A DNA stretch of 64,000 bases. Source: Clostridia bacterium. GTDB lineage: Bacteria > Bacillota > Clostridia > Christensenellales > Borkfalkiaceae. The stretch spans positions 86,535 through 150,534 of the forward strand of contig JAFTSN010000025.1 in the NCBI GenBank assembly GCA_017467275.1, in the 5' to 3' direction. Below the pieces are notes generated by a model, which was not told the origin of the DNA, searched no databases, and saw only the letters and a program-made list of their open reading frames with translations. Of the stretch, positions 6,434 through 40,255 are shown piece by piece. The position numbers and the translations under genes were made by a program. How positions within the stretch are numbered: the stretch's first letter is position 1; each line of letters starts with the position of its first letter.

Positions 6434-9229
6434 TTATTTTTTACGCTTGAAGCACACAAGCCCTGCCGCGGCAAGAGTCGTGATTGCCATCACGGAAAGC
6501 CCAATCGACGAGCCGCAGTTTCCGCAAGAAGAACTTTCCTGATCGCTTCCGCCGCCGTTTGTGCCCGAGCCGCCGTTTCCGCCCGCCGCCGCCTTGAATG
6601 TCACGCCGATAGAAACGTCCTCAATTCCCTCGACAACGTAAACGTACTTGCCCTCGTCGTTCTCGCTAATCGCCACGCCGTTCACGCTAACCGTCTGCAC
6701 GACGTAGCCCTTATCGGGCGTTGCCGTGATCGTCACGCTATCGCCGAGATAGGCTTCCGTCTTATCCGCGCTCGCCGTGCCGTTCTTCGTCTCTCCAACA
6801 GAGACCGCACGCGCGACTCTCTCCACCTCTACCTCAACCTTTACTTTCGTCTTACCTGTAAGTAGCGTCGCATAGCCGATATTGCTCGCGTCCACTTCGC
6901 CGACGATATACCACTTGCCGTCCTCTTTTTCATAGCCGAGCCAAGAGATGGGAAGATCAACCGTGCTCTCGTTCGCAAAGACGGCGGCGACAACCGCGTC
7001 GTTAATTCTTCTCGTCGCTTGCGTGGCGGTGAGACGGTCGGTGAGCTTGCCGCTCAAAGGGGTGCCGCCCTCAAATACAGGCGTATCTGCGATCGAAGAA
7101 ATGATTTCGCCGTTCATGTCGCCTACGACAAGCTTGCCCTTTGCCCAATAGGCGTTGGACTGATCGAGCGTCTGTGCGAAGTTGTAGACGGAAACGTTGT
7201 CCACCCAACCCTTGAAAAGGTTGTAGCCGTTGTTCCAGATACATCTCCCGCCGATCGAGAAATTCATGTTCATATGCTCGAGATTCCAGCCCTCGGGGCA
7301 CTCCTCGCTATAAGCGAGCACGCCGTCCACGTAGGCGTTGAAGAACTGCCCGGGGCGCACGCTCAAGGTGACGTTATGCCATCTCTCGCTGCCGTCCTCA
7401 ACGACTTTCTGCGTCCAATAGAGGCTGGGCGTCTCCTCCACCATATTGATCGTGATATTATGACCCTGCACGCGCAGCTCATCCGAGCCGTCCGCCACGA
7501 TAAAGCCCGCGCCCACCGAGGAACCGAAGTCTGCCGCCCCGAAAGATACGGGCGCCGACCAGCCTTGCGAGGTCGTGTAGGTGCCGTCCTGCTTATATTG
7601 GAAATTGAGCGTGAAGCCGTTGTTCACGTGATCGCCGATGTCGTTCATCTGCGAAAGCGCAAGAATGGAATCGCCGTCGAGATATAAAACGCCGTCCTGC
7701 ACCTCGCCCAGATGATAGGCGTTCGCAAGATTCCCTCCCGAGCGCGCCGCGCCCTGAAGATCATACTTGCCCATCGTATCTTTGAGCTTGGTCTCTTCCG
7801 AGTCAAACGTCCAAAGCGCAATCGGCTTGAGCTCAGCCGTAGGTCCCTCGTTCGTCTCCGTAACGTCGAATATGACAGAGACCGTTCCGAACGTGTTCCC
7901 GCCGATCACAACGTCCGCATAGGCGGAATAAACGCCCATGACCGACTTAACCGAGCTGAACGTGACCGTGACTGTTTCCGTGCTGTCGTCGTTAAAGGTC
8001 ACGGTGACCTCTGCCGTGTTGATCTGTTCGAGCATCTCCGCCTCCGTCATGGAGTCCTTGACCTCGCCCTTTAACACCTCGCCTGCAAACACCGCCTCGC
8101 CGAGGCTCTTAAGTTCTGCCACTGTCAATTCATAGGCAATCTCCGTGCCGAAAGCGTTGGCATAGCCGAGCTTACCCGTCGTGATCGTGCCCTTTGCAAA
8201 ATAGGTTTGTTCAATCTTCTCAATCCCCGTCCACGTGATCGGCGTTTCAGCCGTCGTACCGTCCGAAAGAGTCAAGGCTGCGGTTCCCTCGTTCATCGCC
8301 GCAAGCATTGCCTCCTCCGTCATCGTGGAATTGAGCGCAACGCTCGTTGCCTTGTCCGCAAACGTAACGCTTGCGCCCGTTATGTATTTCATGCCCGAGA
8401 GATCGTTTACCGTCACTTTACCGTTCGTGTTATACGCCGTCACGCACGTCTCGTCCATCGCGAAATCGTAGAAAGCAACGTTGCGAATGGAGCCTTTGGA
8501 GGTTTTATCCACCGCGCCGTTGTATCTGCCGCCGATCGAGAAAAAGCTGTTGCCTGTCGCCGTCGCCCAATCCGTATCGATCGTCGTATTCAAAGCCGCG
8601 TTCCCCGCATTCGGATTGGTCAGCGTGATCTTCGAGCCGTTCAGATAAACGCACATCTCCTCGCCCGGCTGAACGGAGACAACCACTTTTTGAAATTCCG
8701 TGGGAGCCGCGTTTCCGTCGAACACCTTCGCACCGTCGTAATATTGCGACGAAACGCCGTGCGCGTTGAAACGAAGCTGTCCTTTCACGCTCGTGCTGCG
8801 GCCGACAAAGGCGAAATAATCATTGGAATTGCCCACGCCGATATAGTGTTGCCAATCCTCTTTGCCGTCCGTTTTGATCTCAAAGCACAGCGTGAACGCC
8901 GTCACGTCCGCAAACATATTGCTCTCCGCGTCCTGCGCCACGCAAAAATTTCCGTCAAACGTCACGCCGCCGCCCGTGATTGCCGTCGCGGTGTCTAGCA
9001 ATGCGCCCGTACCGTCGGCAACGTAGGCGTTGCGGTACTCCATATCGTAATTGCCCATGGAGTCCTTGCCGAAATTAGTTTCATCCTTAAATTCATACTT
9101 CGCGATCGGATTGATTTCCGCCGCGCTTGCGCTTGCCTCGCCGCCCGCAAGAGCGACCCCGCCGAATACGGAGAGTGCCATAACCGCCGTGAGCGCCGAA
9201 AGCGCAATTCTTTTCTTCAAACCTTTCAT
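6434..9229 (-). CDS. Surface protein with two LamG-like domains and C-terminal membrane anchor
   Basis: I use the ATG at 9229 (931 residues) because TGGAGGGCGAT precedes it; an upstream in-frame start would lack a site and spoil the signal peptide MKGLKKRIALSALTAVMALS. Order of parts: LamG/concanavalin-like domain (about 35-290; FSIGGRYNG, GSIRNVAFYDFAM), Ig-like linker repeats with 'SMTEEAMLAAMN' and 'PITWTGIE', second LamG-like domain (about 475-745), another linker, a beta domain 'SADKTEAYLGDSVTITATPDKGYVV', a Gly/Ser-rich spacer, CGNCGSSIG, one membrane helix and KRKK. There is no LPxTG motif. LamG-like domains bind sugars or proteins; likely a surface glycan-binding protein. Its N-terminal half is a close duplicate of the 9404-11332 gene. 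Confidence 0.8.
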   Translation of the reverse strand: MKGLKKRIALSALTAVMALSVFGGVALAGGEASASAAEINPIAKYEFKDETNFGKDSMGNYDMEYRNAYVADGTGALLDTATAITGGGVTFDGNFCVAQDAESNMFADVTAFTLCFEIKTDGKEDWQHYIGVGNSNDYFAFVGRSTSVKGQLRFNAHGVSSQYYDGAKVFDGNAAPTEFQKVVVSVQPGEEMCVYLNGSKITLTNPNAGNAALNTTIDTDWATATGNSFFSIGGRYNGAVDKTSKGSIRNVAFYDFAMDETCVTAYNTNGKVTVNDLSGMKYITGASVTFADKATSVALNSTMTEEAMLAAMNEGTAALTLSDGTTAETPITWTGIEKIEQTYFAKGTITTGKLGYANAFGTEIAYELTVAELKSLGEAVFAGEVLKGEVKDSMTEAEMLEQINTAEVTVTFNDDSTETVTVTFSSVKSVMGVYSAYADVVIGGNTFGTVSVIFDVTETNEGPTAELKPIALWTFDSEETKLKDTMGKYDLQGAARSGGNLANAYHLGEVQDGVLYLDGDSILALSQMNDIGDHVNNGFTLNFQYKQDGTYTTSQGWSAPVSFGAADFGSSVGAGFIVADGSDELRVQGHNITINMVEETPSLYWTQKVVEDGSERWHNVTLSVRPGQFFNAYVDGVLAYSEECPEGWNLEHMNMNFSIGGRCIWNNGYNLFKGWVDNVSVYNFAQTLDQSNAYWAKGKLVVGDMNGEIISSIADTPVFEGGTPLSGKLTDRLTATQATRRINDAVVAAVFANESTVDLPISWLGYEKEDGKWYIVGEVDASNIGYATLLTGKTKVKVEVEVERVARAVSVGETKNGTASADKTEAYLGDSVTITATPDKGYVVQTVSVNGVAISENDEGKYVYVVEGIEDVSIGVTFKAAAGGNGGSGTNGGGSDQESSSCGNCGSSIGLSVMAITTLAAAGLVCFKRKK
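8085..9229 (-). repeat. Tandem paralogous segment, copy A (LamG-coding)
   Basis: About 1.1 kb coding for signal peptide, LamG domain and first linker is closely matched by the segment at about 10190-11332. The encoded stretches IAKYEFKD, NFGKDSMGNYDMEYRNAYVA, FCVAQDAESNMFADVTAFTL and NVAFYDFAMDETCVTAYNTN are the same in both. Boundaries are approximate because they were judged by eye. Confidence 0.75.
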
Positions 9230-9245: not shown

Positions 9246-9389
9246 TTAAAGCTGATCGTTAATCTGCGGAATCGGCACAATCGGAAGCTCGTTGTCCTGA
9301 TAGACGTCCGACGCGCCCGAAGCCGTGATCACGTCCTCGGATAAAAGCTTAATGATTTTCATTTCGGGCTTCTCAAATAATTTTTTCAT
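9246..9389 (-). CDS. 47-residue peptide with DVITASG motif
   Basis: This ORF is too short for usual gene finders. It starts with ATG at 9389 behind GGAGGG with 8-nt spacing and ends with TAA at 9246. The translation begins MKKLFEKPEMKIIKLLSEDV and continues ITASGASDVYQDNELPIVPI, ending PQINDQL. It lies 17 nt upstream of the large LamG protein and 14 nt downstream of the other LamG gene, so it is inside the operon. It has no hydrophobic segment long enough for a membrane helix. A second member of the same type sits at 40077-40217, again directly before a large surface protein. I do not know a named family; function unknown. The two independent instances plus good ribosome sites argue for a real gene. 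Confidence 0.75.
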   Translation of the reverse strand: MKKLFEKPEMKIIKLLSEDVITASGASDVYQDNELPIVPIPQINDQL

Positions 9390-9403: not shown

Positions 9404-11332
9404 TTAACCGAGCACTTCATCCGCTTTCGCACTGTAAGAATAGATCGCCTGCACAACGTTATAAAGCGCTGCATTCTCCGTTCCTTGCGAAAGCACCGTT
9501 TCTATATAGCTAATCGCGCTATACTTGACCGTGATGCCGCCGATGGTCACCGTCTGCACCGTGCTCAAATCTCTTGCGACCACCTGCACCTCAATCACCC
9601 AAATCTTATTCGCCTCGTCCACGCATACGGGCGTACCCGAACAGTTAAATCCATCAACGCTCTCCGCCTTGAAATATACGCAGATTGTGGTTTTGGATTC
9701 AAGAATGAGGGTTGCGCCCAAGAGCTCCACGCCCGCCTGTGCGCCCGTAGCCGACCCCTTATATTGTGCAAGCTCCTCCGCCGTGATAACGTTTTCCGTC
9801 ACCTTTTCAACCACCGCGTTTCCGAAATAATCTTGCGTTGCCTCACAGTAGGCAACAAGGCTTGCCAACAGCTCTTTCACACCCTGCGCGTAATCGCCCG
9901 CCTCAATCGCGTTCGCGTAGTCCTTAACGCTATAGGATGCCGTCGCGCCGTTTTCAACAGCCTCGCCGTCCACCTCGACCACCGTGAGCGTCACGGCTTT
10001 ATCGTAGTCCTTTGCCGCCACGGGATAGGTAAATCTCCAGAGTCCCTCGCCCTCGTCGTATACGCCTGAGACCGTCTCCGTTTCCTTATCCGCCATGGCA
10101 AGCGTCGCTTTCGCGCCCGTCGTGCCCGCAGGCAGCTTCACATAGTAATTGAGCCCGAAATCGTCTGCCGCGGAAATGGACATCTTCATAACCGCCGAAA
10201 GCTCCACCACCGTCAGCTCGTAGGCAATTTCGTTGCCAAACGTGTTGGCATAGCCAAGCTTACTCGTCTCAAACGAGCCCTTGGCATAGTATTTATCGTT
10301 TTCCTGTTCAATCCCCGTCCACGTGATCGGCGCTTCAACCGTCGTGCTGTTGGAAAGGGTCAGGGTTACCGTTCCCTCGTTCATTGCAGCGAGCATTGCC
10401 TCTTCCGTCATGGAAGTGTCGAGCGTTTGGCTCGTCGCCTCGCCCTCGAAGCCCACGTTGGCATCCGTTATGTAGGTAAGGTTCGCAATATCATCCGTCG
10501 TCACTTTTCCGTTCGTATTATACGCCGTCACACACGTCTCGTCCATCGCAAAATCATAAAAAGCAACGTTGCGAATAGAGCCCGTCGACAGTTTATCCGC
10601 GGCACCGTTGTATCTGCCGCCGATCGAGAAGAAACTCTTTCCCGTCGCCGTTGCCCAGGTGCTGTCAATCGACGTGTCCCATGCGGCATTGCTTGCGTTC
10701 GGATTGGTCAAAGCCACCGCCGTTCCGTTTCTGTAAACCGTCATATTCCCACCCGGCTGAACTGAAACGATAATTTTCTCAAAATCCGTAGGCGCTTTAT
10801 TTGCACCGTATTCAAACACCTTTGGTGCAGAATAATAATCATTGTTCTTCGTCATGTTGTAGGTGTAAAGTCTGAGTTGTCCAGGATAAGAGGGCATACG
10901 GCCGATAAAAGAGAAATAATCGCTGGAATTGCCCACGCCGATATAATGCTCCCATTCTGCCGTGCCTTTAGCCGTCATGATCTCAAAGCAGAGCGTGAAC
11001 GCCGTCACGTCCGCAAACATATTGCTCTCCGCGTCCTGTGCCACGCAGAAGCCTCCGCTAAAGCTCACGCCGCCGCCCTCGATTGCCGTGGCACTGTTTA
11101 AAAGCTCTCCTGATCCCCCCGCAACGTAGGCATTTCGGTATTCCATATCATAATTGCCCATGGAATCCTTACCGAAGTTGGTAGAGTCCTTGAACTCGTA
11201 CTTTGCGATCGGGTCGATCTCTACTGCGCTCGCGCTTGCCGTCTGTTCCGCAAAGCCAACCGCACCCACGATTGAAACCGCCATGAGCGCGGAAAGAAGG
11301 GAACAGATAATGCCTTTCTTACATTTTTTCAT
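9404..11332 (-). CDS. Secreted LamG-domain protein, first gene of the operon
   Basis: The protein has 642 residues. AGGAGG lies 6 nt before the ATG. Signal peptide: MKKCKKGIICSLLSALMAVS, cleaved near ASASA. Residues about 38-290 form a LamG-like beta-sandwich (FTLCFEIMTAKGTAEWEHYIG, FFSIGGRYNG). Then comes an Ig-like linker with the same wording as in the neighbouring 931-residue protein, and a C-terminal module (about 385-642) starting MKMSISAADDFGLNYYVKLP with an acidic helical part (YAQGVKELLASLVAYCEATQ). It has no C-terminal anchor, so it may be released or held by partners. It is probably the recent tandem copy of the 931-residue gene, with a different C-terminal end. Role: binding of a glycan at the cell surface is plausible, not shown. 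Confidence 0.78.
   Translation of the reverse strand: MKKCKKGIICSLLSALMAVSIVGAVGFAEQTASASAVEIDPIAKYEFKDSTNFGKDSMGNYDMEYRNAYVAGGSGELLNSATAIEGGGVSFSGGFCVAQDAESNMFADVTAFTLCFEIMTAKGTAEWEHYIGVGNSSDYFSFIGRMPSYPGQLRLYTYNMTKNNDYYSAPKVFEYGANKAPTDFEKIIVSVQPGGNMTVYRNGTAVALTNPNASNAAWDTSIDSTWATATGKSFFSIGGRYNGAADKLSTGSIRNVAFYDFAMDETCVTAYNTNGKVTTDDIANLTYITDANVGFEGEATSQTLDTSMTEEAMLAAMNEGTVTLTLSNSTTVEAPITWTGIEQENDKYYAKGSFETSKLGYANTFGNEIAYELTVVELSAVMKMSISAADDFGLNYYVKLPAGTTGAKATLAMADKETETVSGVYDEGEGLWRFTYPVAAKDYDKAVTLTVVEVDGEAVENGATASYSVKDYANAIEAGDYAQGVKELLASLVAYCEATQDYFGNAVVEKVTENVITAEELAQYKGSATGAQAGVELLGATLILESKTTICVYFKAESVDGFNCSGTPVCVDEANKIWVIEVQVVARDLSTVQTVTIGGITVKYSAISYIETVLSQGTENAALYNVVQAIYSYSAKADEVLG
10190..11332 (-). 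repeat. Tandem paralogous segment, copy B (LamG-coding)
   Basis: Partner of the 8085-9229 segment. The match ends where the linker gives way to the DDFGLNYYVKLP module, so the copies differ in their C-terminal halves. The small DVITASG peptide gene lies between the copies. Confidence 0.75.
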
Positions 11333-14787: not shown

Positions 14788-14868
14788 TTTCCTTTTTCTC
14801 GTCTAACACCCTCCTATCATTAACTTGAGCTCCAGCATAAGAAAGTCCTTGCTTTCTTAATTCCAACC

Positions 14869-16225
14869 TCATAATTTCGTGATATACTAACAAGACTCTC
14901 AAACGGACGTTACGGATTATCTTCGGATTTATAAGTTTCAGTTACTTACAGAATAACAAGACTCTCAAACTGGCGTGACGCCTAATTTAATCGCAAGTTT
15001 GTTTCAGTTACTTACAGAATAACAAGACTCTCAAACATAATGCACCGCCTTTTTTGTTTTTAATCAGTTTCAGTTACTTACAGAATAACAAGACTCTCAA
15101 ACAGTAAGATAATAAAAAACCGCTGACCTATCGTTTCAGTTACTTACAGAATAACAAGACTCTCAAACGTTCGCCAGTCTTTCCTATCAATGTAAATAGT
15201 TTCAGTTACTTACAGAATAACAAGACTCTCAAACAATAATCATTTTATCCATAAATTGCCCCCTGTTTCAGTTACTTACAGAATAACAAGACTCTCAAAC
15301 ACTTCCAGCTACGCTGGTGGTATAATGTACGTTTCAGTTACTTACAGAATAACAAGACTCTCAAACTTCGTAATAGTCCAAATATTCCTTTCGGCTGTTT
15401 CAGTTACTTACAGAATAACAAGACTCTCAAACGGCGTAGCCGTAACCGTTAAACCAAAAATAGTTTCAGTTACTTACAGAATAACAAGACTCTCAAACAA
15501 AAAGCGGTTGACAGATTGTATGTAGTATGTTTCAGTTACTTACAGAATAACAAGACTCTCAAACATGTGCGCCGTCGTTGTGTTGCTTTTTCCGGTTTCA
15601 GTTACTTACAGAATAACAAGACTCTCAAACGCGATTGGGGTGGTGGGGGTTTCCTGCCAATGTTTCAGTTACTTACAGAATAACAAGACTCTCAAACTGT
15701 GTGTCATACTCTTTACTCCTTTGCCGTGTTTCAGTTACTTACAGAATAACAAGACTCTCAAACGTCAGGCTGACCTGATACTTTTCGGGAACCGTTTCAG
15801 TTACTTACAGAATAACAAGACTCTCAAACTGAGACTTCTAAAATTTTGCAGATTTGTATGTTTCAGTTACTTACAGAATAACAAGACTCTCAAACATAAA
15901 CTGACGAAGAGCAACTGCATCGGATGTTTCAGTTACTTACAGAATAACAAGACTCTCAAACAGAATTAACGGCAACTGCGTCAAAGTCGATGTTTCAGTT
16001 ACTTACAGAATAACAAGACTCTCAAACCAATTATCTTGTCGTCTTGAATTTTATCTGGTTTCAGTTACTTACAGAATAACAAGACTCTCAAACTGCTTTA
16101 ATCGGTAACAACGGTTGGGGCGGGTTTCAGTTACTTACAGAATAACAAGACTCTCAAACACTAGTCTTTAGCTCACACATACAACGATTGTTTCAGTTAC
16201 TTACAGAATAACAAGACTCTCAAAC
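14869..16225 (-). CRISPR. Type II-A CRISPR array: 20 perfect 36-nt repeats, one degenerate end repeat, 20 spacers
   Basis: Full repeats start at 14935 and recur every 66 nt to 15595, then at 15662 and every 66 nt to 16190. Every spacer is 30 nt except 15631-15661, which is 31 nt. All 20 repeats look identical. In the crRNA direction (minus strand) the repeat begins GTTTGAGAGTCTTGTTA and ends AAGTAACTGAAAC; the GTTTNAGAG start is typical of type II-A. The last repeat (14869-14904) keeps only 17 nt of its first half, so it is the old, leader-distal end. The newest spacer is therefore the one beside 16190. Repeat uniformity and the intact acquisition genes suggest an active array. Confidence 0.98.
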
Positions 16226-16304
16226 CTCAAATGATTGGCGTGAGCGTCACGTATCGACAATACGGCTTTCTGTAAGTTCCTATCAAAACAGCTCTTATGC
16301 TATT
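16226..16304 (-). promoter_or_regulatory. CRISPR leader with ATTTGAG anchor
   Basis: Read on the minus strand, the leader ends in ATTTGAG (16226-16232) directly against the first repeat. This is the leader-anchoring sequence known from type II-A systems of streptococci, where it directs Cas1-Cas2-Csn2 spacer insertion. Two small palindromes lie just upstream: CGTGAGCGTCACG (16239-16251) and CGTATCGACAATACG (16250-16264). A further 10 nt (16268-16277) are an inverted match to part of the repeat. Confidence 0.88.
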
Positions 16305-16333
16305 ATTTTATCACAAATCTTAATAATTTTCAA
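16305..16333 (-). promoter_or_regulatory. Promoter of the CRISPR array
   Basis: On the minus strand: -35 TTGAAA (16328-16333, inside the last codons of csn2), 17-nt spacer, -10 TAAAAT (16305-16310) preceded by TGA, an extended -10. Transcription would start near 16298 and give a leader RNA of about 73 nt before the first repeat. Confidence 0.8.
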
Positions 16334-17009
16334 GTATTTCGCATAAATCTTCCGTAATAATCACTGCCCTTTCTGCGGGAAGCAACGGACGAAATTTTCC
16401 TCTTTCTATCAATAAAAGTCCAATCTGCTCTCTAAAACAATGTTCATATATATTCAACAGTCTTTTATCGTCTAAAACGCTTTTTAAATTGATAAAAACA
16501 AAAAATTCGGACTTTTTTAATTCAATCAGCGCATTGATATAACAAATAAGCTTCTCCTCTAAACTATCGTAGCTTTTTTCAAATTTTACCCCCGCCGCTT
16601 TCAAATAATCGATTGGTTGCGGTTCACTATAATCAAGTGCGAACGGAACGAAAAAAGCAAGCTCGCCCAAAAATTCTATCGTTTTGGCGCTCAATTCGTT
16701 AAACAGTGAAATCTTTTCCCCAAACGCCACCTCCTCCAATCTCTTTTGTAAAAGCGTTAATAGCTTTTTATCGTTAAAATCAAATTGAAATAAATTAGAA
16801 ATGATTGTACCGTATTTTGCCGCATCTATAATTTTTCCGTTTTGCGAAAATACAAACGCTCCTTCTGCACCGTCAAACTGCTCCACTAAATCCGTTATCA
16901 TTGAATAAAACTCATTTGGATTTTCCACGACTAAAAGCTGAACGCATCCGTCGGTTAAAATAAGCGGTGTCTCCAAGTGTACGTGCGCAATTTTAATTTC
17001 CCCTTTCAT
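16320..17009 (-). CDS. csn2: Csn2, type II-A spacer acquisition protein
   Basis: The protein has 229 residues, near the usual 220 of the short Csn2 family. Segments GCVQLLVVENPNEFYSMITD near the N-terminus, IDYLKAAGVKFE (about 133-144) and FFVFINLKSVLDD followed by GLLLIERGKFRPL match the Csn2 plan. Csn2 forms a tetrameric ring that slides on double-stranded DNA ends and works with Cas1, Cas2 and Cas9 during spacer capture. Its start overlaps the cas2 stop by four bases (ATGA). Presence of Csn2 defines subtype II-A. The gene ends 11 nt from the array promoter's -10 box. Confidence 0.9.
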   Translation of the reverse strand: MKGEIKIAHVHLETPLILTDGCVQLLVVENPNEFYSMITDLVEQFDGAEGAFVFSQNGKIIDAAKYGTIISNLFQFDFNDKKLLTLLQKRLEEVAFGEKISLFNELSAKTIEFLGELAFFVPFALDYSEPQPIDYLKAAGVKFEKSYDSLEEKLICYINALIELKKSEFFVFINLKSVLDDKRLLNIYEHCFREQIGLLLIERGKFRPLLPAERAVIITEDLCEILENY

Positions 17010-17326
17010 AGCTCCACCAGCCTATCCAAACTGTCAATGACTAACTGTTGCTCCTCCCCCACTAAATACTCTATTTTTGAAAATTGATTTTCCGTAATCT
17101 CCAAAAGCTCCACTAGTCCCTCGTTTGGAACATTATCGCGTATACGCTGTTTTACGGCTGCACTTGCCACATTGTTAATAACAAGTTTTGTATAAACGGA
17201 TTTTTGCATCATAATAAAGCCGATTTTTAATAAAAATTTATGAAAACGGTTATATTCACGCCGATCTTTATCCGTCAGCATAGGTAAATCAAAAAATAGC
17301 ATTAATCTCATAAATTTATAATTCAT
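17006..17326 (-). CDS. cas2: Cas2, spacer acquisition protein
   Basis: I choose the ATG at 17326 (106 residues), because MNYKFMRLMLFFDLP matches the normal Cas2 start; an upstream in-frame start adds 13 residues that do not fit. The conserved aspartate is D13 (FFDLP). The body FHKFLLKIGFIMMQKSVYTK and LLEITENQFSKIEYLVG match type II-A Cas2. It overlaps the cas1 end by 11 nt and the csn2 start by 4 nt. Cas2 dimerises and bridges two Cas1 dimers in the spacer integrase. Confidence 0.95.
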   Translation of the reverse strand: MNYKFMRLMLFFDLPMLTDKDRREYNRFHKFLLKIGFIMMQKSVYTKLVINNVASAAVKQRIRDNVPNEGLVELLEITENQFSKIEYLVGEEQQLVIDSLDRLVEL

Positions 17327-18197
17327 CTTGCGTAATTTTATCAGGAAAAACCAAAAGCTTTTCATCCTGTTCGTCTAATGCGCGAAAAACGCTCTTAACA
17401 AATTGCCGTATCGCCAAATCGAGAGTAGTATTTTTTCCGTCGATAAGAGTTTTATAGTTTAAAACGTTTGTCATTTTTTTCTTAAAATCTCTATCCCCTT
17501 CTTCAAGCATCATAGCAGCACGATCAACGACCACACGGAAAGGTTCCATCAAATCGCAGGCAAGATTAAACGGATTAAATTCGTTGTCGTGCCAAATACC
17601 TAGTTGCGTTAAATACCCGCTCGCCGCTATTTCACGGTTAAAAGCGGAAAGCAAAATCGCATACCCGTAATTCAAGCAGCCATTCAAAAAACCGCCGCCT
17701 TTTCGTGAATTTCCCATACCAAGCACGCAATTAAAGTAAACCTTTGCTGCATGCCCCTCACGATTGGTGACGTCGTTATCTTGCACCTCCAAAACATAAG
17801 AGTTTAATAAGTCCGCCTGTTGAAAAAAACCACCCTCTCGCAAATGCTCGGCTTGCCCCTCAATCTTTCTTTTCACAATCTCTTTCCAAATACGTGCCTT
17901 TATTTCGACGCCCCAAGCAACCTGCTCTTTATAACGTTTCGACGTGTTATGCGCACCGTAATAAGGCATCAATTCCGATTGCGGATTATGCTTTTCATCG
18001 CAAAAAATAATTTTAACGTTCTTTTTTATCAATTCGCACAGGAGAGAAGCAGTTAAAGAAACCGCCGTACTTTGAATAATTAAAGTGTTGATTTCGTCAA
18101 GAAAGATTTTCTTTTCCTGCTCCCCTCGAACGATTAAACTGTTTAGGCGCACTTCGAGTTTCGCTCTATTTTTGATAATGACAATGCGAAACCCCAT
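17316..18197 (-). CDS. cas1: Cas1, CRISPR integrase
   Basis: The protein has 293 residues, the normal size for type II Cas1. Likely metal-binding residues: E147 (NREGHAAK), H203 (GIWHDNEFN) and E218 (CDLMEPFR). Cas1 cuts and joins new spacers at the leader-repeat junction. Its ATG overlaps the cas9 stop in TAATG, so translation is probably coupled. The N-terminal beta domain (MGFRIVIIKNRAKLEVRLNS) is intact and nothing looks truncated. Confidence 0.98.
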   Translation of the reverse strand: MGFRIVIIKNRAKLEVRLNSLIVRGEQEKKIFLDEINTLIIQSTAVSLTASLLCELIKKNVKIIFCDEKHNPQSELMPYYGAHNTSKRYKEQVAWGVEIKARIWKEIVKRKIEGQAEHLREGGFFQQADLLNSYVLEVQDNDVTNREGHAAKVYFNCVLGMGNSRKGGGFLNGCLNYGYAILLSAFNREIAASGYLTQLGIWHDNEFNPFNLACDLMEPFRVVVDRAAMMLEEGDRDFKKKMTNVLNYKTLIDGKNTTLDLAIRQFVKSVFRALDEQDEKLLVFPDKITQDEL

Positions 18198-21100
18198 TAT
18201 ATTTTTTGAATACGCTCAATTAATCCACACGGCGATTGGTGAATGATAGAAAAATCAATATCGGTTATATTTTTCCCTATTAAAAGACTTCCACAGTTTG
18301 CTCCGTCGTTCAATAAGGTCAAATCTGCCTTTTCTGCATTGCACTTCATTACACGAATAATTTGCAACAATACTTTACATTGCTCAAATACTGTTAAGTC
18401 CTCAAAAATCAATTTCTTTTCTTGAAGTTTAGCGCCAAAGCTTCTTACACTTGACAAGCCTTGATAAGTCTTTTGGGAAAGCTTATCAATAATCGTGGTA
18501 TATAACGCTAGATTTTTTTCTTTGTCGGCATAAAGCTTCACTTCGTTTCGATTACTCATAAGCGGAATTTTATCCAACAATTTTTCCGCACTAGACAATT
18601 TACCATTCTTATCCTTTTCAAGCAACTTTACTAACTGCTTTATATATAAATCGATTTTACTATCCGTAAACCATTGTCGTGCGTTATGGATAATAATTCT
18701 ATTTCCTGATGCAACACCAGCAATCCACACTTTGTAGCCATTTATAGATACGAGAGATTTTACTTTTAATTTCCTCACAAGAATTACGGGCTCAATTAAG
18801 CCGTTTGTCTGTAAAAATTCCTCAATAGCATTCTTGTTTTTCCTTGCCATATAATCGACAAGCACAGGAATTGCCTCTATCGTCTTTATTAAGTTTCCTT
18901 TCTTATCTTTCGATTGCACGATTATAAAATACGCTGTTTTTAAAGACTTAAATCCACCGTATTTTTCTGTTTGATTATATGGAGCGACATTCTTACGAGG
19001 TGCAGTAATCGCCCTGTCTTCTTTTGAATATACCGTTTCGTCATAGAATGCACCTTGATTGGTATACGAATATCTTGTCACAGACATGCTTGTCCGCATG
19101 ACGATTTTCTTAACTCGTTCAATATCTTCTGCCCCCGACCAAGCACCGTCGATTTTCCAACGATAGATTTTCTCCAAATTGTAACCGCGCTGAACTCCCT
19201 CTTTATCGGTATAAAAATAGGAGGCGTTTGAAGTGAATTTCGTGTCGTATATATTCCCGACAATGATGTTTAAATAAGCGTCACGCGCATGATGCAAATC
19301 ATTTGTTTCACGACATTTGACAATACCATGTCTCTGTTTAAAGTCGTCGACATTCTTCGCCTTGCTATAAACAATCTTTGTCCCAAACGGCTCGTATTTG
19401 CATTTTAACAGCTCTGCCACCGCCTTTACCGTTTGATTCGTCACCACCAACTGACGATTAACAAAGCCTCTGAAATCCTCCTCGCTTAACGGGCTCATTC
19501 TTGTCAAGCGCGCATACTTTTCAGAAGACATCAAGCCTTTTTCTTTTAAAATACGCCAAAATCCTTGCTGCTCCGTAAATCCTTGCGGCAAGGGATATGT
19601 ATTGGTTTTTTCCGCATTTTTCTTACGCTCCACAAGCACTTTATTGTCAAGACTGTCATCTTTGGTCATGGATTGCGGAACAATATGATCCACGTCATAC
19701 AAATCGGTTGCCAGCTGCTCCAATTTAATCGAATTTCCCGTGTAGGCGCACTTACCCAATTGCAGGAAATATAAATACAACCGCTCGGAACGTAAACGGG
19801 AATCGGTCATATCCTCACGATTGAGTTCTTTTGTTAACGCTTCCAACTCGCGACAGTCCGAGCCCAACCCCTTGTATAATTCCAAAATCTTGGCTTTACG
19901 GGAGAGCTTACGCCCTTGATCGCCTTTTTCGCCATGCTCGCGCGTCACTTCTATAAAAATCTTATCCGGCGCTTTTCCCACCGCTTTCACGTATTCATCT
20001 GCCATTTGCAGAGCCTGCCAAATCCCTCGGCGCACCATTGGAGAAACATACAATTCTTCCACATCCTTATAGGAGAGCTCCTCCGTTCTTCCCGCATTTT
20101 CCCCGTCGATCGCTTCCTTGAAGGAAAACTCATCCGCAAACAGAAGCTGGTTAAAATTGTAATTCGTGTGATACAGGCGGTTTAAAACAGTGTAAACCTC
20201 GCCAGTCGCAGAATCCGCTCCACCAATAATTTCACAAAGCAATTTTTTAGAAAGACGACCGAATTCCTTGAACGACGTCAACCCCTTCAACCACTTGATA
20301 TTTTCTTTGATTGAAGAGATCTCTCCGTAGTGTTGCAATATCATTTCTTCCACGAGCCTCTTATCCGTATTGAGTGTATGCCAAAGAATGATATTTTCAA
20401 ATATTTCAGGTTTCTCATCCACCAACGAGCCAAACCTGTCTTTAAAATTCACATACGCGTTCATGTTTGCTTTCAGGTCGGTCATCGAATCAAAACCGCC
20501 TAAAATATCTCTGCTTTCCGCTTGCGTACAATAACCGCACGCCACGAGATATTCCCTAATCTGCTTTGCCCCCACTTTCTTTTGCTTTAAGTATACATTT
20601 CGGAAAATTTCCTGTTTTAAAGAAATGGAAATCGGCTCTCCGTTTATCCGCAATTTATTAATTTGATTGAGTACGTCAAACGCCTGATAGTACATCGACC
20701 CTTTCGGCAACACGTCTTGTGTGTGCAAATACGTGCACTTATTCGTCATGCGACGAATAAATCCTTCGTTGCTTTTCGCCTTGTCCACGACCTCGTCAAA
20801 ATTCCAAGGCGTGATTTTTTCATTCCTCCCCGTTTTACGAACCATCCAGCCGTTTTTGCCCGAGGGATTCAGAGGCCCCACATAATAGGGAATTCTGAAA
20901 AGAAAGATCGATTTAATTTTTTCCGCCGCCGAATACCCGTCTTCATCCTTTTGTGCAAAAACAGGATATTTCTCGCAAAGAGCTTTCAAGATGCAATCGA
21001 GCTCTATGCCGTTGATTTGATGCGGGAACAGACCGTTATCTGCATGCAATATCTTGGGCAGAAAATTTTTGTCTTCGATCTCCGAAAGAATCGCGTGAAG

Positions 21101-22285
21101 CGTCTCTTTATCCGTTACGTCCGTTGCACGTAACGTTTTTACCAAAAATTTATAAAACTCTTCCGCAGCGCATTTTTTCTCATTATGCAGCTGCTTTGCG
21201 CCCTTAGACTTATTGTACCCTATATAATTAACATAATTATTTTTCTCCTTTCTCGAGCGGAAAATTGCATAATAGGTTTCCTGCGGATAATTTGCCCGTA
21301 CAAATTCTTTTAATTGTTTGAGATCCCTTTGATGTTTTTCATATAAAGCAACCATCGCCGTGGAAATATTTTCATTCCCGCCTAAAACCTTTTCAAAAAC
21401 GGTAAAATTATAAATGGCGCGTGCCGCATTCAAAAGCTCGAAATGCTCCCCATCAAACGACTCGCTCATCGCTTCAAAATTCTCATCCGTAAGACCGTCG
21501 AAAGAAAAACTTTTTTGTTCTTTGTATTTTTCCGCATGCTCCACCCCGAACAATTTTTTAGGGGAAACCGTTGCGCCAAACAACAGCGCAATCCACTCTT
21601 TCTTTTCAGGCGTCGTCGCACCAAACAAAACCGCGCCCTCTTTTTTCTTATCGTTTTTGCCCTTTCTCTCTAAAGCCAAGGCTTTGAAGTCTTCCGCTCT
21701 ATCCTCTTGAAGCCGCAAATCAACTTCTAAATCCAATTCGCCGACAAAATAGTTATACGTCTGAAACAACTTCCGAATGTCGCGAATCTCGCCCATGTCC
21801 CCCTCGAAAAGGAAGTGCCCACGGTATTTCACAATATGATGCAGAGCAAGATAATAATGGCGCGCGTCCATCCTTTTCTCCGTTCCCTCAATCAATGCCT
21901 TTCGTAAATGAAAAATCGTCGGAAAATCCTTATAAAACTCCGCGTCCGTATAATCCGCGTCAGCAAATAACGAAAATCTCGTCTCCAATTCTTTAGCCTT
22001 ATCCTCTTCGTAAAAGCCGCTGTTATTTAAACGCAAAAAGAAATTCGCGTCCTCTATAAAAGGAGCAAAAACCCCCTGTAAAAAATCAATACGCTGTTTG
22101 CGCCGCTCTAATCTTCTTCGCGCCGTCCGCTTTGCGCGACGCTCCGAAGCGTCTTTCGCTTCATCAAACAAACGCACCGCCCACAGATCTTTTCCCTTTG
22201 CACGCAACAAATTATACTGTTCGTCCGTACAAGCCATACCCACCGATTCGGTACCGATATCCATGCCTAAATAAAATTTTTTCAT
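18197..22285 (-). CDS. cas9: Cas9, type II-A RNA-guided DNA endonuclease
   Basis: The protein has 1362 residues, close to the 1368 of Streptococcus pyogenes Cas9. RuvC-I: D9 in YLGMDIGTESVG. Arginine-rich bridge helix about 49-65. Recognition lobe about 70-750. RuvC-II: E779 in IFIEVTREHGE. HNH: D866, H867 (VDHIVPQSM) and N890 (ERKKNAEKTN). RuvC-III: H999 and D1002 (LHHARDAYLNIIV). The C-terminal 300 residues are the PAM-interacting region; the PAM cannot be read from sequence. TTTTGGAGG precedes the ATG. All nuclease residues are present, so both strands should be cut. It heads cas9-cas1-cas2-csn2, with tracrRNA divergent in its 5' region. Confidence 0.99.
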   Translation of the reverse strand: MKKFYLGMDIGTESVGMACTDEQYNLLRAKGKDLWAVRLFDEAKDASERRAKRTARRRLERRKQRIDFLQGVFAPFIEDANFFLRLNNSGFYEEDKAKELETRFSLFADADYTDAEFYKDFPTIFHLRKALIEGTEKRMDARHYYLALHHIVKYRGHFLFEGDMGEIRDIRKLFQTYNYFVGELDLEVDLRLQEDRAEDFKALALERKGKNDKKKEGAVLFGATTPEKKEWIALLFGATVSPKKLFGVEHAEKYKEQKSFSFDGLTDENFEAMSESFDGEHFELLNAARAIYNFTVFEKVLGGNENISTAMVALYEKHQRDLKQLKEFVRANYPQETYYAIFRSRKEKNNYVNYIGYNKSKGAKQLHNEKKCAAEEFYKFLVKTLRATDVTDKETLHAILSEIEDKNFLPKILHADNGLFPHQINGIELDCILKALCEKYPVFAQKDEDGYSAAEKIKSIFLFRIPYYVGPLNPSGKNGWMVRKTGRNEKITPWNFDEVVDKAKSNEGFIRRMTNKCTYLHTQDVLPKGSMYYQAFDVLNQINKLRINGEPISISLKQEIFRNVYLKQKKVGAKQIREYLVACGYCTQAESRDILGGFDSMTDLKANMNAYVNFKDRFGSLVDEKPEIFENIILWHTLNTDKRLVEEMILQHYGEISSIKENIKWLKGLTSFKEFGRLSKKLLCEIIGGADSATGEVYTVLNRLYHTNYNFNQLLFADEFSFKEAIDGENAGRTEELSYKDVEELYVSPMVRRGIWQALQMADEYVKAVGKAPDKIFIEVTREHGEKGDQGRKLSRKAKILELYKGLGSDCRELEALTKELNREDMTDSRLRSERLYLYFLQLGKCAYTGNSIKLEQLATDLYDVDHIVPQSMTKDDSLDNKVLVERKKNAEKTNTYPLPQGFTEQQGFWRILKEKGLMSSEKYARLTRMSPLSEEDFRGFVNRQLVVTNQTVKAVAELLKCKYEPFGTKIVYSKAKNVDDFKQRHGIVKCRETNDLHHARDAYLNIIVGNIYDTKFTSNASYFYTDKEGVQRGYNLEKIYRWKIDGAWSGAEDIERVKKIVMRTSMSVTRYSYTNQGAFYDETVYSKEDRAITAPRKNVAPYNQTEKYGGFKSLKTAYFIIVQSKDKKGNLIKTIEAIPVLVDYMARKNKNAIEEFLQTNGLIEPVILVRKLKVKSLVSINGYKVWIAGVASGNRIIIHNARQWFTDSKIDLYIKQLVKLLEKDKNGKLSSAEKLLDKIPLMSNRNEVKLYADKEKNLALYTTIIDKLSQKTYQGLSSVRSFGAKLQEKKLIFEDLTVFEQCKVLLQIIRVMKCNAEKADLTLLNDGANCGSLLIGKNITDIDFSIIHQSPCGLIERIQKI

Positions 22286-36786: not shown

Positions 36787-39700
36787 TTATTCGCCGACGT
36801 ATTCCACAATCTTGCAAATATTCACGCTCTTGTATTCCGCTCTGCCGTTGCCTTGCGTCGCGCCGAGCATCAACGTCAACTTCATATCACCCGTGCCTAC
36901 AACCGTGCTCAATGCCACCACTCTCGTAGCGTTAGACTTAATGTCGCCCGAACCGTTCACTTGCGTACCGTCTTTCCAGATATTCGTGTAATACGCGGAA
37001 TCCAAATCGCCGAACACGTAGGTAAGGAAGGTGTTGCCGTCCACGTTCAGGTTTACGTCGTCACTGACTACGTTCCCCCAATTATCGTATCTGTCTTCCA
37101 CCACCGCTACGTCCTTATTCGAGTCGTAAGATGCCGTCGCATGGTTGCCGCCGTTTTTACCGTCGGTAAACGTCGCAAGCTTTTCCGCGTTCCAATATAC
37201 GATCTTTTCCACTTCGAACTTCACGTAAGCCGACCAAGAGGAGTAAGAATCTTCACCGAGCACGCCGCGTACGCGAACCGCGTATTTCCCGCTTTCCAAA
37301 TTATCCGCAGAAACTTGGTAAACGTTGCCGCTTGCCACTTTTCCAGCCGTCGCCGTATTCAGCGTTTTCAAAACCACAGTCTCCGCCGTCCAATCGGTGA
37401 GCGTAGACACTTCCACTTCATAAGACGTCGCACCAGTCACGGTAAGCCACGAGATTGCACCCGTCGCCGCACTGTAAGAAGCCGTGCGCGTGTCGGTGAT
37501 CGTCAAAGAAACGTCCAGCGTAAAGCCGTTCGTATCCGTCAAAGTCACGGTGTACTCACCGTATACAAGCGCTTCAAGAGTCGCCGCTTTCAACGTGATA
37601 GCGTGAGGCGTAGTTTCATACTGATCGGAAGTAAGCGTTACCCCGTCGATTGAAACCGACTTCAACGTGGCGGCTTTTTCAAACGTGTAATCAATTTCTT
37701 TATCAGTTGCATTCGATTTATCAAACGTCACTTCCTTCGTTTCCGTCATCGGATCGCAAGGCAAAATAGAGTACTCTGCAAGCACGATGCTCTTGATCGT
37801 GATCGTTCTATTCGAGCTATTCGTACCGCCCATACCAAATGCATAATATAACGTATTGTCGATAATATACGAACCGTTGAAGGACCCGCTTAATGGCGTA
37901 AAGATGTCCGAAATCGTATATTTGCCGCCTGAGGTCACGTAATTCTCAAATAAGATCTCACGAGGGCTCGTTCCAGAAGCCCCGTAAAAGCCCATCAAAT
38001 ATTTCGTATCGTTCGTCACATCGCCGAGCGTAACCGTAATCACGGAATCCGTCGTAAGTCTCTTGCCCGTCATATCGATATGATAGGTAAAGGCAACCCA
38101 ATTACCCGAGCCCGCGCAAACCCAAGAAATACCGTTTTCGTTCATCGTGAAGTCTTTCGCGTCGCCTTCTCTATAAGCGTACCTATTATTAATATACGCC
38201 GCCGTGAAATCAGTGCCTGAATTATGCGTTTCGGTATATCTTACGTCCACAACCGTAGGCTCGGAGGCAGAGTGATATACGCCCTCTGCATCCCCGTTCG
38301 CCATGAACGATACCTGATACGTTTCACCCGAAACGAGCGCAAATTGCGTAAGGTCTACGGAAAGGCTCGTCGCGTCGCTCACGGTATAATTTACACCGTC
38401 GCCCGTCACGCTGATCGTATACGTAATATTCGCTTCCGCAATCTTATTAGCGGGAGCGCTTGCGGAAATTACCGCACCCTTCTTCGTAACGTTTGCGGGC
38501 GCGTCCAATTTCAAAAGCTCTACGGGAGGCTCTACGTATTCGTTCACGCTCACGATATAAATACCGCGAACAGTAATATACGTATCTGCCGTCGAAACGC
38601 CCGGATAAATTTTAAAGTTGGTCACGGTATCCGTCAAATCCCCTTGTTCTACGGGATCGTTCGCCTTAATTGCAATATAACGGTCTTCTTCATACGTACC
38701 CATCTGCGTATCTTTCATAAGATATACTTTATTGCCGTCTTCTTGCGATCCGTCGTAGGACATCTTGAAATACATCGTACCGTTCCCCGCAACCGTGTCC
38801 ATAACGATGATGGGATTCTTTGCCATATTCAGCGTTATACCTTCGTTGGAAACGATTAACCCGTAATTCCCCGCGCTCTTAATCTGTGCGTAGCCAGTTT
38901 GATCATTATACGTTGCGTACACACCGTTTTCCGAGGTCGAGAAAGCCCCGTTCGTTGTGTCAATTTCCGAAGCCGACCAATCCTTATAACGCGTAACGAC
39001 GAACTTATATTCCTCGGAAGCGTTTGCCGAACCGTCTATCCAAGACTTGGTATGCGCCGCTTTTACGGTAGCCGTATACGTACCGCCCGAAAGCAAATAC
39101 GGCTTATACGCGTTTTCGGAAACGGTATACACGTTGGCGTTGCCACCCTCGTCCGTTACCGTCACTTCGTATTGATCTGCCGTGATATTTCCTTGCTCCG
39201 TCGTAACAGCGTCCCACGTCAAAGCACCAAAGCTATCAAGCGTGATTGTACCCACGTCCGCAAGCTGATAACTGCTTGCCACCGTATCTTTTACGGTCAC
39301 TACGCAAATAGCCGTTTTCTTACCGAATTTCGCGATGATCGTCACTTCGCCTTCTTTCACCGCTTTCACCGTGCCGTCTTTCACCGTCGCGATTTCGGAG
39401 TTGGACGATTCCCAAACAACCTCGTAACCCGCGGGAGCCGTCGTCGCCGCAAGAGTCAACGTTTCGCCCGTCTTTACAATCGCGTCCACCTTATCGAGCG
39501 TCACACCCGTAGCCACCGTATCCACGTAATTGAGCATTACGCCGTTTTCGTCCTCTGCGTTCGACGCAAGCGCTTTCGCCGCAACTTGCGCGATAGAGCG
39601 CTCCTGCGGATTTGTCGCATACGTGTATTGCGTGCCGATCCGCACGTAACTGCGTGCAACGAGCACTTCCGCATATCTCGTATCGGGAATATCCGTCAAA

Positions 39701-40077
39701 ACCGCGGTATAGCTCATGTAGTTATCCACTTCGCTTTCTGCCCACACCTTCAATTCGACATCCGCAACGCTCGCAACCGAATGAGTAAGCTCCGCCTCGC
39801 CGAGAAGGGCTTTAGGGATTATGAGCGTACCGAAACTGTAATCCTGCTCCGCAAGAGAAGCGTAATACTCTTCATTGACGTATGTCGTGAAACGAATCCC
39901 CGTAGGCAATTGGGTACGGACGGAACCGCCCGTTCTCATTTCAAACGTGGACGTAGTGATTTCGGGCACTGCATTTTCCGCAGCGTCCGTCGTAAGCATA
40001 TACGCGGCGGGCGCAACGAGTCCAAGCATCAAAGCAGACAAAGCTGAAGTTAAACCGAACTTTAACGATTTTTTCAT
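36787..40077 (-). CDS. Large secreted multi-domain surface protein with Ig-like domains
   Basis: The protein has 1096 residues with signal peptide MKKSLKFGLTSALSALMLGL. Residues about 38-185 form a module with GSVRTQLPTGIRFTTYVNEE and YSFGTLIIPKALLGEAELTH; I know no name for it. A Big_2-type Ig domain follows at about 190-268 (KTGETLTLAATTAPAGYEVV; WESSNSEIATVKDGTVKAVK). Then come several fibronectin-like units and two beta-sandwich modules. There is no anchor and no catalytic motif. Its ATG overlaps the stop of the 46-residue peptide gene in TAATG, so its translation depends on that peptide being translated. Likely an adhesin or scaffold-like component of the glycan system. Confidence 0.75.
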   Translation of the reverse strand: MKKSLKFGLTSALSALMLGLVAPAAYMLTTDAAENAVPEITTSTFEMRTGGSVRTQLPTGIRFTTYVNEEYYASLAEQDYSFGTLIIPKALLGEAELTHSVASVADVELKVWAESEVDNYMSYTAVLTDIPDTRYAEVLVARSYVRIGTQYTYATNPQERSIAQVAAKALASNAEDENGVMLNYVDTVATGVTLDKVDAIVKTGETLTLAATTAPAGYEVVWESSNSEIATVKDGTVKAVKEGEVTIIAKFGKKTAICVVTVKDTVASSYQLADVGTITLDSFGALTWDAVTTEQGNITADQYEVTVTDEGGNANVYTVSENAYKPYLLSGGTYTATVKAAHTKSWIDGSANASEEYKFVVTRYKDWSASEIDTTNGAFSTSENGVYATYNDQTGYAQIKSAGNYGLIVSNEGITLNMAKNPIIVMDTVAGNGTMYFKMSYDGSQEDGNKVYLMKDTQMGTYEEDRYIAIKANDPVEQGDLTDTVTNFKIYPGVSTADTYITVRGIYIVSVNEYVEPPVELLKLDAPANVTKKGAVISASAPANKIAEANITYTISVTGDGVNYTVSDATSLSVDLTQFALVSGETYQVSFMANGDAEGVYHSASEPTVVDVRYTETHNSGTDFTAAYINNRYAYREGDAKDFTMNENGISWVCAGSGNWVAFTYHIDMTGKRLTTDSVITVTLGDVTNDTKYLMGFYGASGTSPREILFENYVTSGGKYTISDIFTPLSGSFNGSYIIDNTLYYAFGMGGTNSSNRTITIKSIVLAEYSILPCDPMTETKEVTFDKSNATDKEIDYTFEKAATLKSVSIDGVTLTSDQYETTPHAITLKAATLEALVYGEYTVTLTDTNGFTLDVSLTITDTRTASYSAATGAISWLTVTGATSYEVEVSTLTDWTAETVVLKTLNTATAGKVASGNVYQVSADNLESGKYAVRVRGVLGEDSYSSWSAYVKFEVEKIVYWNAEKLATFTDGKNGGNHATASYDSNKDVAVVEDRYDNWGNVVSDDVNLNVDGNTFLTYVFGDLDSAYYTNIWKDGTQVNGSGDIKSNATRVVALSTVVGTGDMKLTLMLGATQGNGRAEYKSVNICKIVEYVGE

Positions 40078-40217
40078 TAGTTTGCCCCTCCCTCATCCTT
40101 CACAGTAAACCAGTCGTTTGACCATTTTTGCAAATTGTCCGTTTCGCCGCTGGCTGTAACCACGTCGTTTTCCAGCATCAAACAAACAATTTCCAAAGCC
40201 ACATAGTTCTTTTTCAT
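40077..40217 (-). CDS. 46-residue peptide with DVVTASG motif, coupled to the 1096-residue protein
   Basis: Starts at ATG 40217 after GGAGGCTTGCGGCA and ends in TAA whose last base is the A of the next ATG. It reads MKKNYVALEIVCLMLENDVV, then TASGETDNLQKWSNDWFTVK, ending DEGGAN. The first half shares with the 9246-9389 peptide the plan MKK, then alternating hydrophobic residues, then (E/N)DV(I/V)TASG, followed by a variable polar tail. No signal peptide or membrane helix. It is too short for standard gene calling. Function unknown; the overlap suggests at least a translational-coupling role, but the shared motif suggests the peptide itself matters. Confidence 0.75.
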   Translation of the reverse strand: MKKNYVALEIVCLMLENDVVTASGETDNLQKWSNDWFTVKDEGGAN

Positions 40218-40255
40218 TGCCGCAAGCCTCCTTAATTGTTTTCTGTTTTTTATTT

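Follow-up and report, generated by a model that had tools for sequence, protein, structure and literature searches.

The 46-codon ORF at 40077..40217 on the reverse strand of the window (the whole 64,000-nucleotide stretch analysed here) was confirmed by sequence comparison as a real gene, and its product is very probably a RiPP-type precursor, one of a family of short peptides encoded directly beside large secreted proteins. The reading which we favour, with fair but by no means full confidence, is that these peptides are dispersed precursors resembling those of the LPP RiPPs (linear polyphosphorylated peptides of Bacillota; PMC13381572, Nat Commun 2026), and that they would be bound by a shared RRE, cleaved, phosphorylated on a serine and exported as partners of a domain in the neighbouring surface protein. 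The preliminary description of this DNA had listed a secreted signal or modified peptide among the possible jobs, and this is the job now favoured, given the RiPP machinery that co-occurs with the peptides; its statement that no characterised family was known has been overtaken, as the closely related LPP system was published in May 2026.

The window ORF reads MKKNYVALEIVCLMLENDVVTASGETDNLQKWSNDWFTVKDEGGAN (46 amino acids, ATG start) and has the strong ribosome site TTAAGGAGG, with AAGGAGG at 40227..40233 of the reverse strand read directly from the sequence. It can be divided into a leader, MKKNYVALEIVCLMLENDVVTAS(G), and a tail, ETDNLQKWSNDWFTVKDEGGAN. As described previously, its TAA stop codon shares one base (TAATG) with the ATG of the reverse-strand ORF at 36787..40077. 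The product of that ORF, a secreted protein of 1096 aa, contains a Big_2 domain and has a marginal Shr-like match. The second peptide of the window (9246..9389, reverse strand, 47 aa) consists of MKKLFEKPEMKIIKLLSEDVITASG followed by the tail ASDVYQDNELPIVPIPQINDQL, has the same ribosome site TTAAGGAGG and contains EDVITASG, the core already seen to be shared between the two. It is located between two reverse-strand genes for secreted proteins, one of 642 aa (9404..11332) ending 14 nt before the peptide, and one of 931 aa (6434..9229) starting 16 nt past it. A degenerate DNA motif, GAYRTNRTNACNRCNWSNGG, matches at these two sites in the window and nowhere else in the entire 1.55-Mb genome, compared with a mean of 0.02 matches in window shuffles. 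In a set of 101 genomes, made up of the own one and 100 relatives, GAYRTNRTNACNRCNWSNGG had 33 exact matches spread over 26 genomes (the own two counted), and the reversed pattern used as control over the same genomes had none. Matches within the genus were short ORFs, with L007 as sole exception, and of the 11 outside the genus two were true members of the family (L004, L020), the other nine being chance matches in other frames or long ORFs. From these counts and the inspection of the matches, it is clear that the window pair is far beyond chance.

The family consensus is MKKxYxxPE-x9-D[VI]IT[AT]SG, after which the tail is variable and in many cases acidic; the leader, of about 25 residues, combines a YxxP-type element with a D[VI][IV]T[AT]SG block. 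Both of the copies seen earlier are real, but the own-genome total is 14, of which 12 were found with a leader-only profile (26 positions, E≤0.05) and two (L272, L273) solely through inspection beside the remaining domain genes; likewise the conserved core stands, but now reads as the leader/processing region of a putative RiPP-type precursor. The search for similar clostridial ORFs proposed in the preliminary description was made with a stricter pattern in 84,980 GTDB species genomes and gave 61 stretches. All of these contain a short ORF in frame with the pattern, 28-87 codons long (the one in L106 extends past the end of its stretch), and many adjoin giant secreted proteins. The 27-nt spacing was identical in 60 of these 61, with 24-30 nt in any phase permitted, and the record titles are mainly of Clostridia, among them Ruminococcus, Oscillospiraceae and Lachnospiraceae, with gut or rumen as the sample source in many cases. 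Profile searches found additional, looser copies of the family. One contig labelled Alistipes senegalensis (L090) has a peptide and neighbours closely similar to those of Ruminococcus loci (L088 and L119, for example), and is probably misbinned.

Among 121 aligned members, the aromatic leader position is Tyr in 111 and Phe in nine, the Pro of YxxP is present in 76, and the Ser column contains Ser in 116 and no other residue in the other five. This last count is the fairer one, because the Ser invariance seen in two earlier sets was partly by choice, with members omitted: a set of 41 peptides was author-chosen and left out some matches, including the EDVTNFGG type, and another alignment left out 6/65, with two members unparsed. 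Peptides of the EDVTNFGG, EDFTNFGG and -GE type (L168, L170, L176) are without Ser at that site. Of the 113 members which could be parsed (eight of the 121 could not), 93 have a spacing of 19 between the aromatic residue and the Ser, and 11 a spacing of 18; peptide 1 is among the latter, and has YVAL without the Pro of YxxP, the equivalent in peptide 2 being FEKP. A Pfam/NCBIfam scan of 41 members gave no match above cut-off, only single matches at chance level (best E 0.015), and a search for the motif strings in open-access full texts of papers found none. The dN/dS pooled from 17 pairs, which are orthologues apart from a few paralogues, was 0.18 for the leader and 0.33 for the tail, hence the peptide sequence is under purifying selection at the protein level, with the tail evolving faster; equal rates of synonymous and non-synonymous change, as considered in the preliminary description, were not seen.

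The secreted proteins adjoining the peptides have two domains in common, both absent from Pfam. The first, GIRF (about 160 residues, GASVR..GIRF..ARGYI..RSxxxVA), is found in the 1096-aa protein as GGSVR..GIRF..ARSYV..ERSIAQVA (residues 38-187, E 2e-42; 39517..39966, reverse strand), which is N-terminal and on the side of peptide 1. The second, BL (about 287 residues, bilobal), covers residues 370-642 of the 642-aa protein (E 2e-70; 9407..10225, reverse strand), which is C-terminal and on the side of peptide 2; the 931-aa protein was searched and has neither GIRF nor BL. AlphaFold models of BL (pLDDT 85, from 26 sequences; two beta lobes with helices after each) and GIRF (pLDDT 67, from five sequences) both have beta strands followed by helices. 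Foldseek returned only weak matches to these models (NEAT, CBM56, FN3, Ig and adaptin-ear folds), none with E below 0.001 and no close solved structure, and PDB sequence searches with GIRF and BL gave nothing significant. Homology between GIRF and BL is not claimed, as the profile comparison extended over 22 columns with a probability of 4.5% (E 0.009). Signal peptides were called by a crude hydrophobicity score, and the N-terminus of the C14 protein (L245) lay outside the examined part. The 931-aa protein ends in a hydrophobic segment and a basic tail; this protein (window 6434-9229) and the secreted proteins at L066 2622-4496 and L068 4203-6464 have ends that are Cys/Ser-rich with a hydrophobic segment and a charged tail (e.g. 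CGNCGSSIG...KRKK), a possible surface-sorting signal.

The linkage between peptides and domains is close to one-to-one in the own genome, which contains 15 proteins with GIRF or BL, one of them weak (C15:80103). Thirteen of the 15 have a same-strand peptide within 20 nt, those without being C13:223149 and the weak C15:80103, and 13 of the 14 peptides abut a domain protein (11/12 when L272 and L273 are left out), the remaining peptide at C13:22226 having no detected domain neighbour; a binomial estimate is 3e-21, with 1400 genes assumed and L272 and L273 included. This upholds the earlier proposal of a family of short peptides accompanying large secreted proteins. The domain also tends to be encoded at the gene end facing the peptide, with upstream peptides next to N-terminal and downstream peptides next to C-terminal domains, in 44 of 46 cases over the loci compared (p 3e-11; exceptions L095 and L162). 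This rule was formed on L062-L142 and then held for 5/6 in L143-L176; the count takes same-strand neighbours within 45 nt only, takes a domain as near when it lies closer to the end in question than to the opposite one (L067 being central), and omits near-duplicates (L079, L085, L089, L115, L146) and ambiguous rows (L080, L088, L092, L120, L167). Adding six own-genome loci (L245-L248, L272, L273; four near, and L245 and L248 far) brings the tally to 48/52 by hand, and three of the 13 linked own-genome pairs (C24, C23, C14) have the domain in the middle or at the end away from the peptide. More widely, a domain protein was present within 45 nt for 51 of 120 peptides; among 33 further adjacent proteins, some have GIRF-like ends when read by eye (L076, L145, L147), beyond the reach of the profiles, and many have neither GIRF nor BL. 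Judged from linkage alone, it is fairly probable that the peptide is a functional partner of the neighbouring domain.

With regard to the enzymes, a candidate RiPP cluster is present in the own genome at C13:314137-318587 (L229), on another contig than the window, as a same-strand run of kinase, PqqD, SPase, ABC and NTP_transf_5 genes, the PqqD and NTP_transf_5 genes of this genome being within 3 kb. The predicted RRE matches PqqD (PF05402, E 1.5e-17), its best NCBIfam match being lasso_PqqD_Bac (E 4e-10, under its cut-off), NTP_transf_5 has an E of 3e-45, and an ABC exporter is also present. The kinase candidate has a GKSGTGKS P-loop, an ScmC match (E 2e-4) far below cut-off and no matching Pfam family, and the protease has an SPase-I-like match (TIGR02228, E 2e-7) under its cut-off with SMLP, LHR and GDN motifs; the HprK-like kinase and SPase assignments are thus weak, being based on weak profile matches and motifs read by eye. 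We consider it likely that the peptides are processed in trans by this cluster, although the finding of a precursor in none of the 15 stretches around a PqqD gene (own L229, and L231-L244) counts against it. Precursors do lie beside enzyme genes elsewhere: in L171 (G351, of the own family) PqqD and NTP_transf_5 come immediately after the peptide, the peptide of L127 adjoins both (Pfam), and both are in the same stretches as the peptides of L161 and L164 (G321 and G152, respectively). RiPP-type genes were also recognised by eye beside the peptides of L095 and L107, the L095 SPase being checked separately as well. L095, L107, L127, L161 and L164 carry parts of the kinase, PqqD, SPase, ABC and NTP_transf_5 set, not each of them all, and the RiPP-type gene calls in L127, L161 and L164 were profile-tested in part.

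The association was also apparent at genome level in 297 genomes of the order, where PqqD was over cut-off in 18 of the 19 genomes with a peptide versus 30/278 others (Fisher p 4e-15), and NTP_transf_5 in 17/19 versus 18/278 (Fisher p 4e-16), with these p values ignoring kinship and the peptide genomes defined at E≤0.001 (27 at the looser E≤0.05). G070 has a peptide without PqqD or NTP_transf_5, G174 is without NTP_transf_5 over cut-off, and G036 has both genes and no peptide match, and the listed genomes of three genera of the own family (g43, g45, g46) are without peptide, PqqD and NTP_transf_5. This tracking of RRE and NTP_transf_5 by the peptide across genomes speaks against the idea that the peptide stays in the cytosol and binds the nascent surface protein, as a chaperone or secretion pilot for GIRF and BL, with its likeness to RiPP leaders a matter of ancestry only. 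Such a partner would fit with the near one-to-one linkage, the closeness to the domain-encoding end, the stop/start overlap with the giant gene at the window locus, L246, L248 and L273, and the failure to recognise a Sec signal in the peptide, but a conserved leader with a faster tail is the pattern of a precursor and not of a chaperone, and in L107, L159, L164, L165 and L171 the peptide has RRE or radical SAM genes next to it but no protein with GIRF or BL; we therefore regard a cytosolic role as unlikely.

The closest published counterpart of the precursor reading is the LPP system. PMC13381572 describes clusters of lppA-K-B-S-D-N, with a precursor, the HprK kinase LppK, the RRE LppB, the SipW-like protease LppS, the MsbA-like exporter LppD and the NTP transferase LppN; these have one to three precursor ORFs each, and are often located by capsule loci in Bacilli. 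According to the same paper, the leader motif is YxxPxVLxHQxIxFETxxS, cleavage is after T-1, Ser3 receives one to four phosphates, and what LPPs and paeninodins do biologically is unknown. Set against that description, the C13 cluster is similar in having five accessory genes in the lppKBSDN order (with the weak kinase and SPase matches given above), among them a discrete PqqD-type RRE and a signal-peptidase-I-like protease, and the peptides are similar in their leader, which is partly of YxxP type, variable C-terminus and conserved Ser soon after the presumed cleavage region. There are also clear differences from the LPPs as described there: the peptides have the D[VI]IT[AT]SG block and lack VLxHQxIxFET, so that only the aromatic residue, the Pro (partly) and the final Ser are common to both, the Ser mostly follows the aromatic residue at a spacing of 19 instead of the 18 of LppA, and the 14 precursors are scattered outside the own enzyme cluster and tied to surface-protein domains. 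As the mid-leader differs and peptide 1 is without the Pro, we call the peptides LPP-like, and not LPP in the strict sense. Searches of open-access full texts found no second paper on LPPs besides PMC13381572, and only unrelated uses of the acronym for ScmC and NTP_transf_5; word searches of two papers on RREs (PMC12710340, PMC7470986) found no kinase or signal peptidase. The enzyme machinery is of a published kind, and the dispersal of the precursors and their linkage to domains appear to be new; no account of either was found in open-access full texts, with print elsewhere possible.

From homology and co-occurrence, the following route can be proposed for the LPP-like peptides. The C13 RRE would bind the YxxP-type leader, the SPase-like protease would cut close to the DVIT block, the kinase would phosphorylate the Ser of T[AT]SG, a counterpart of LppA S3 as given in PMC13381572, and the exporter would release the tail. 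By analogy with the LPPs, we lean, if only slightly, towards the conserved Ser being phosphorylated. Going by the linkage, phosphopeptide and neighbouring domain might then act together outside the cell, with the peptide as ligand, adaptor or assembly tag, and the overlap or spacing of <20 nt may keep peptide and surface protein in proportion. Much more tentative is the wider notion that gut Clostridia rely on a single trans-acting RiPP cluster to produce a whole series of phosphopeptides for export, each one serving specifically the domain of the giant surface protein next to it, as ligand or assembly tag. If true, RiPP chemistry would here underlie a system for surface display or assembly, and Ruminococcus-like genomes would have a version of the tag (ELPFVP) tethered as a lipoprotein. 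The linkage offers the LPP-like peptide class a concrete, testable partner, and a function-linked handle on many uncharacterised surface proteins in gut glycan-utilisation loci, and the dispersal implies that searches centred on enzyme clusters alone would miss many precursors.

Lipoproteins were seen downstream of the peptide in ten loci (L084, L090, L092, L097, L109, L115, L119, L124, L131, L139). These proteins of Ruminococcus-like loci are small, with a Thr/Ser-rich linker, and end in ELPFVP or ELPFIP plus two residues, which is like the tail that some peptides have and like NELPIVP in peptide 2. The ELPFVP lipoprotein resembles a version of the same tag tethered to the membrane, and since its C-terminus resembles peptide tails, the peptide tail may act outside the cell. 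The surface role suggested by this shared tail does not sit well with an exported peptide that acts apart from its neighbour, as a pheromone or antimicrobial, and is linked to it merely by co-regulation with glycan-utilisation loci. The RiPP machinery and variable tails would suit such a signal or bacteriocin, as would the location of the window copies inside polysaccharide-utilisation loci with AraC-type regulators, but co-regulation does not predict linkage to two particular domains, mostly at their gene end, and 14 copies in a single 1.5-Mb genome are also against it, making an independent signal improbable. The weakest proposal, a coupling leader that is translated only to make the giant gene's ribosome site accessible, whatever peptide it encodes, draws on the TAATG overlap at the window locus and is hardly credible, and as a sole function is refuted by position and dN/dS, since the peptide gene can be on either side of the giant gene (downstream of it in 26 of the 28 domain-linked rows of the GTDB loci L082-L142), purifying selection acts on the amino-acid sequence and the same family adjoins RiPP enzymes.

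The LPP-like peptides also share features with other RiPP systems. Bacillota lasso leaders have a [Y/W]xxP motif (PMC13381572), and paeninodin-like and other Bacillota lasso clusters have a PqqD-type RRE, with an HPr-kinase-like enzyme and a nucleotidyltransferase in some (PMC7533575). Compared with these descriptions, the [Y/W]xxP leader, a Thr near the leader end, the RRE and the accessory enzymes are alike, but the B2 peptidase is missing: PF13471 was over cut-off in one of 35 PqqD-bearing genomes (eight have any match at E≤0.01) and has no match in the own genome, and the lasso reading was rejected on this ground. The genes of the own C13 cluster include no macrolactam cyclase. The same leader type is found with radical SAM/SPASM (TIGR04463-like) and NHLP/C39 systems, as radical SAM maturases adjoin the peptides in L126, L159, L165 and L166 (and, by eye, in L153), and an NHLP C39 exporter is beside that of L163, whereas such genes are absent at the window loci. 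The maturases score below curated cut-offs and the L163 exporter above its own. Peptides with this leader type and Cys-containing tails were seen in L253 (4485-4859 and 7655-7930) and L165 (851-1361), those of L165 adjoining the radical SAM maturase and thereby suggesting that the leader type is common to several RiPP classes.

Two further features of the window were recorded. The region from 23681 to 48611 is a polysaccharide-utilisation locus, with GH125, two GH130-type proteins with F5/8 domains, a phosphomannomutase, CE2 and SASA esterases, DUF1861 and an AraC regulator, the gene content of which suggests use of mannan or host glycans. Cas9 is encoded at 18197-22285 (reverse strand) and a repeat array with a period of about 66 nt is located at 14865-16225, so that 14865-22285 is, by its gene content, a type II CRISPR-Cas system, in which the ORFs between Cas9 and the array are probably cas1, cas2 and csn2.
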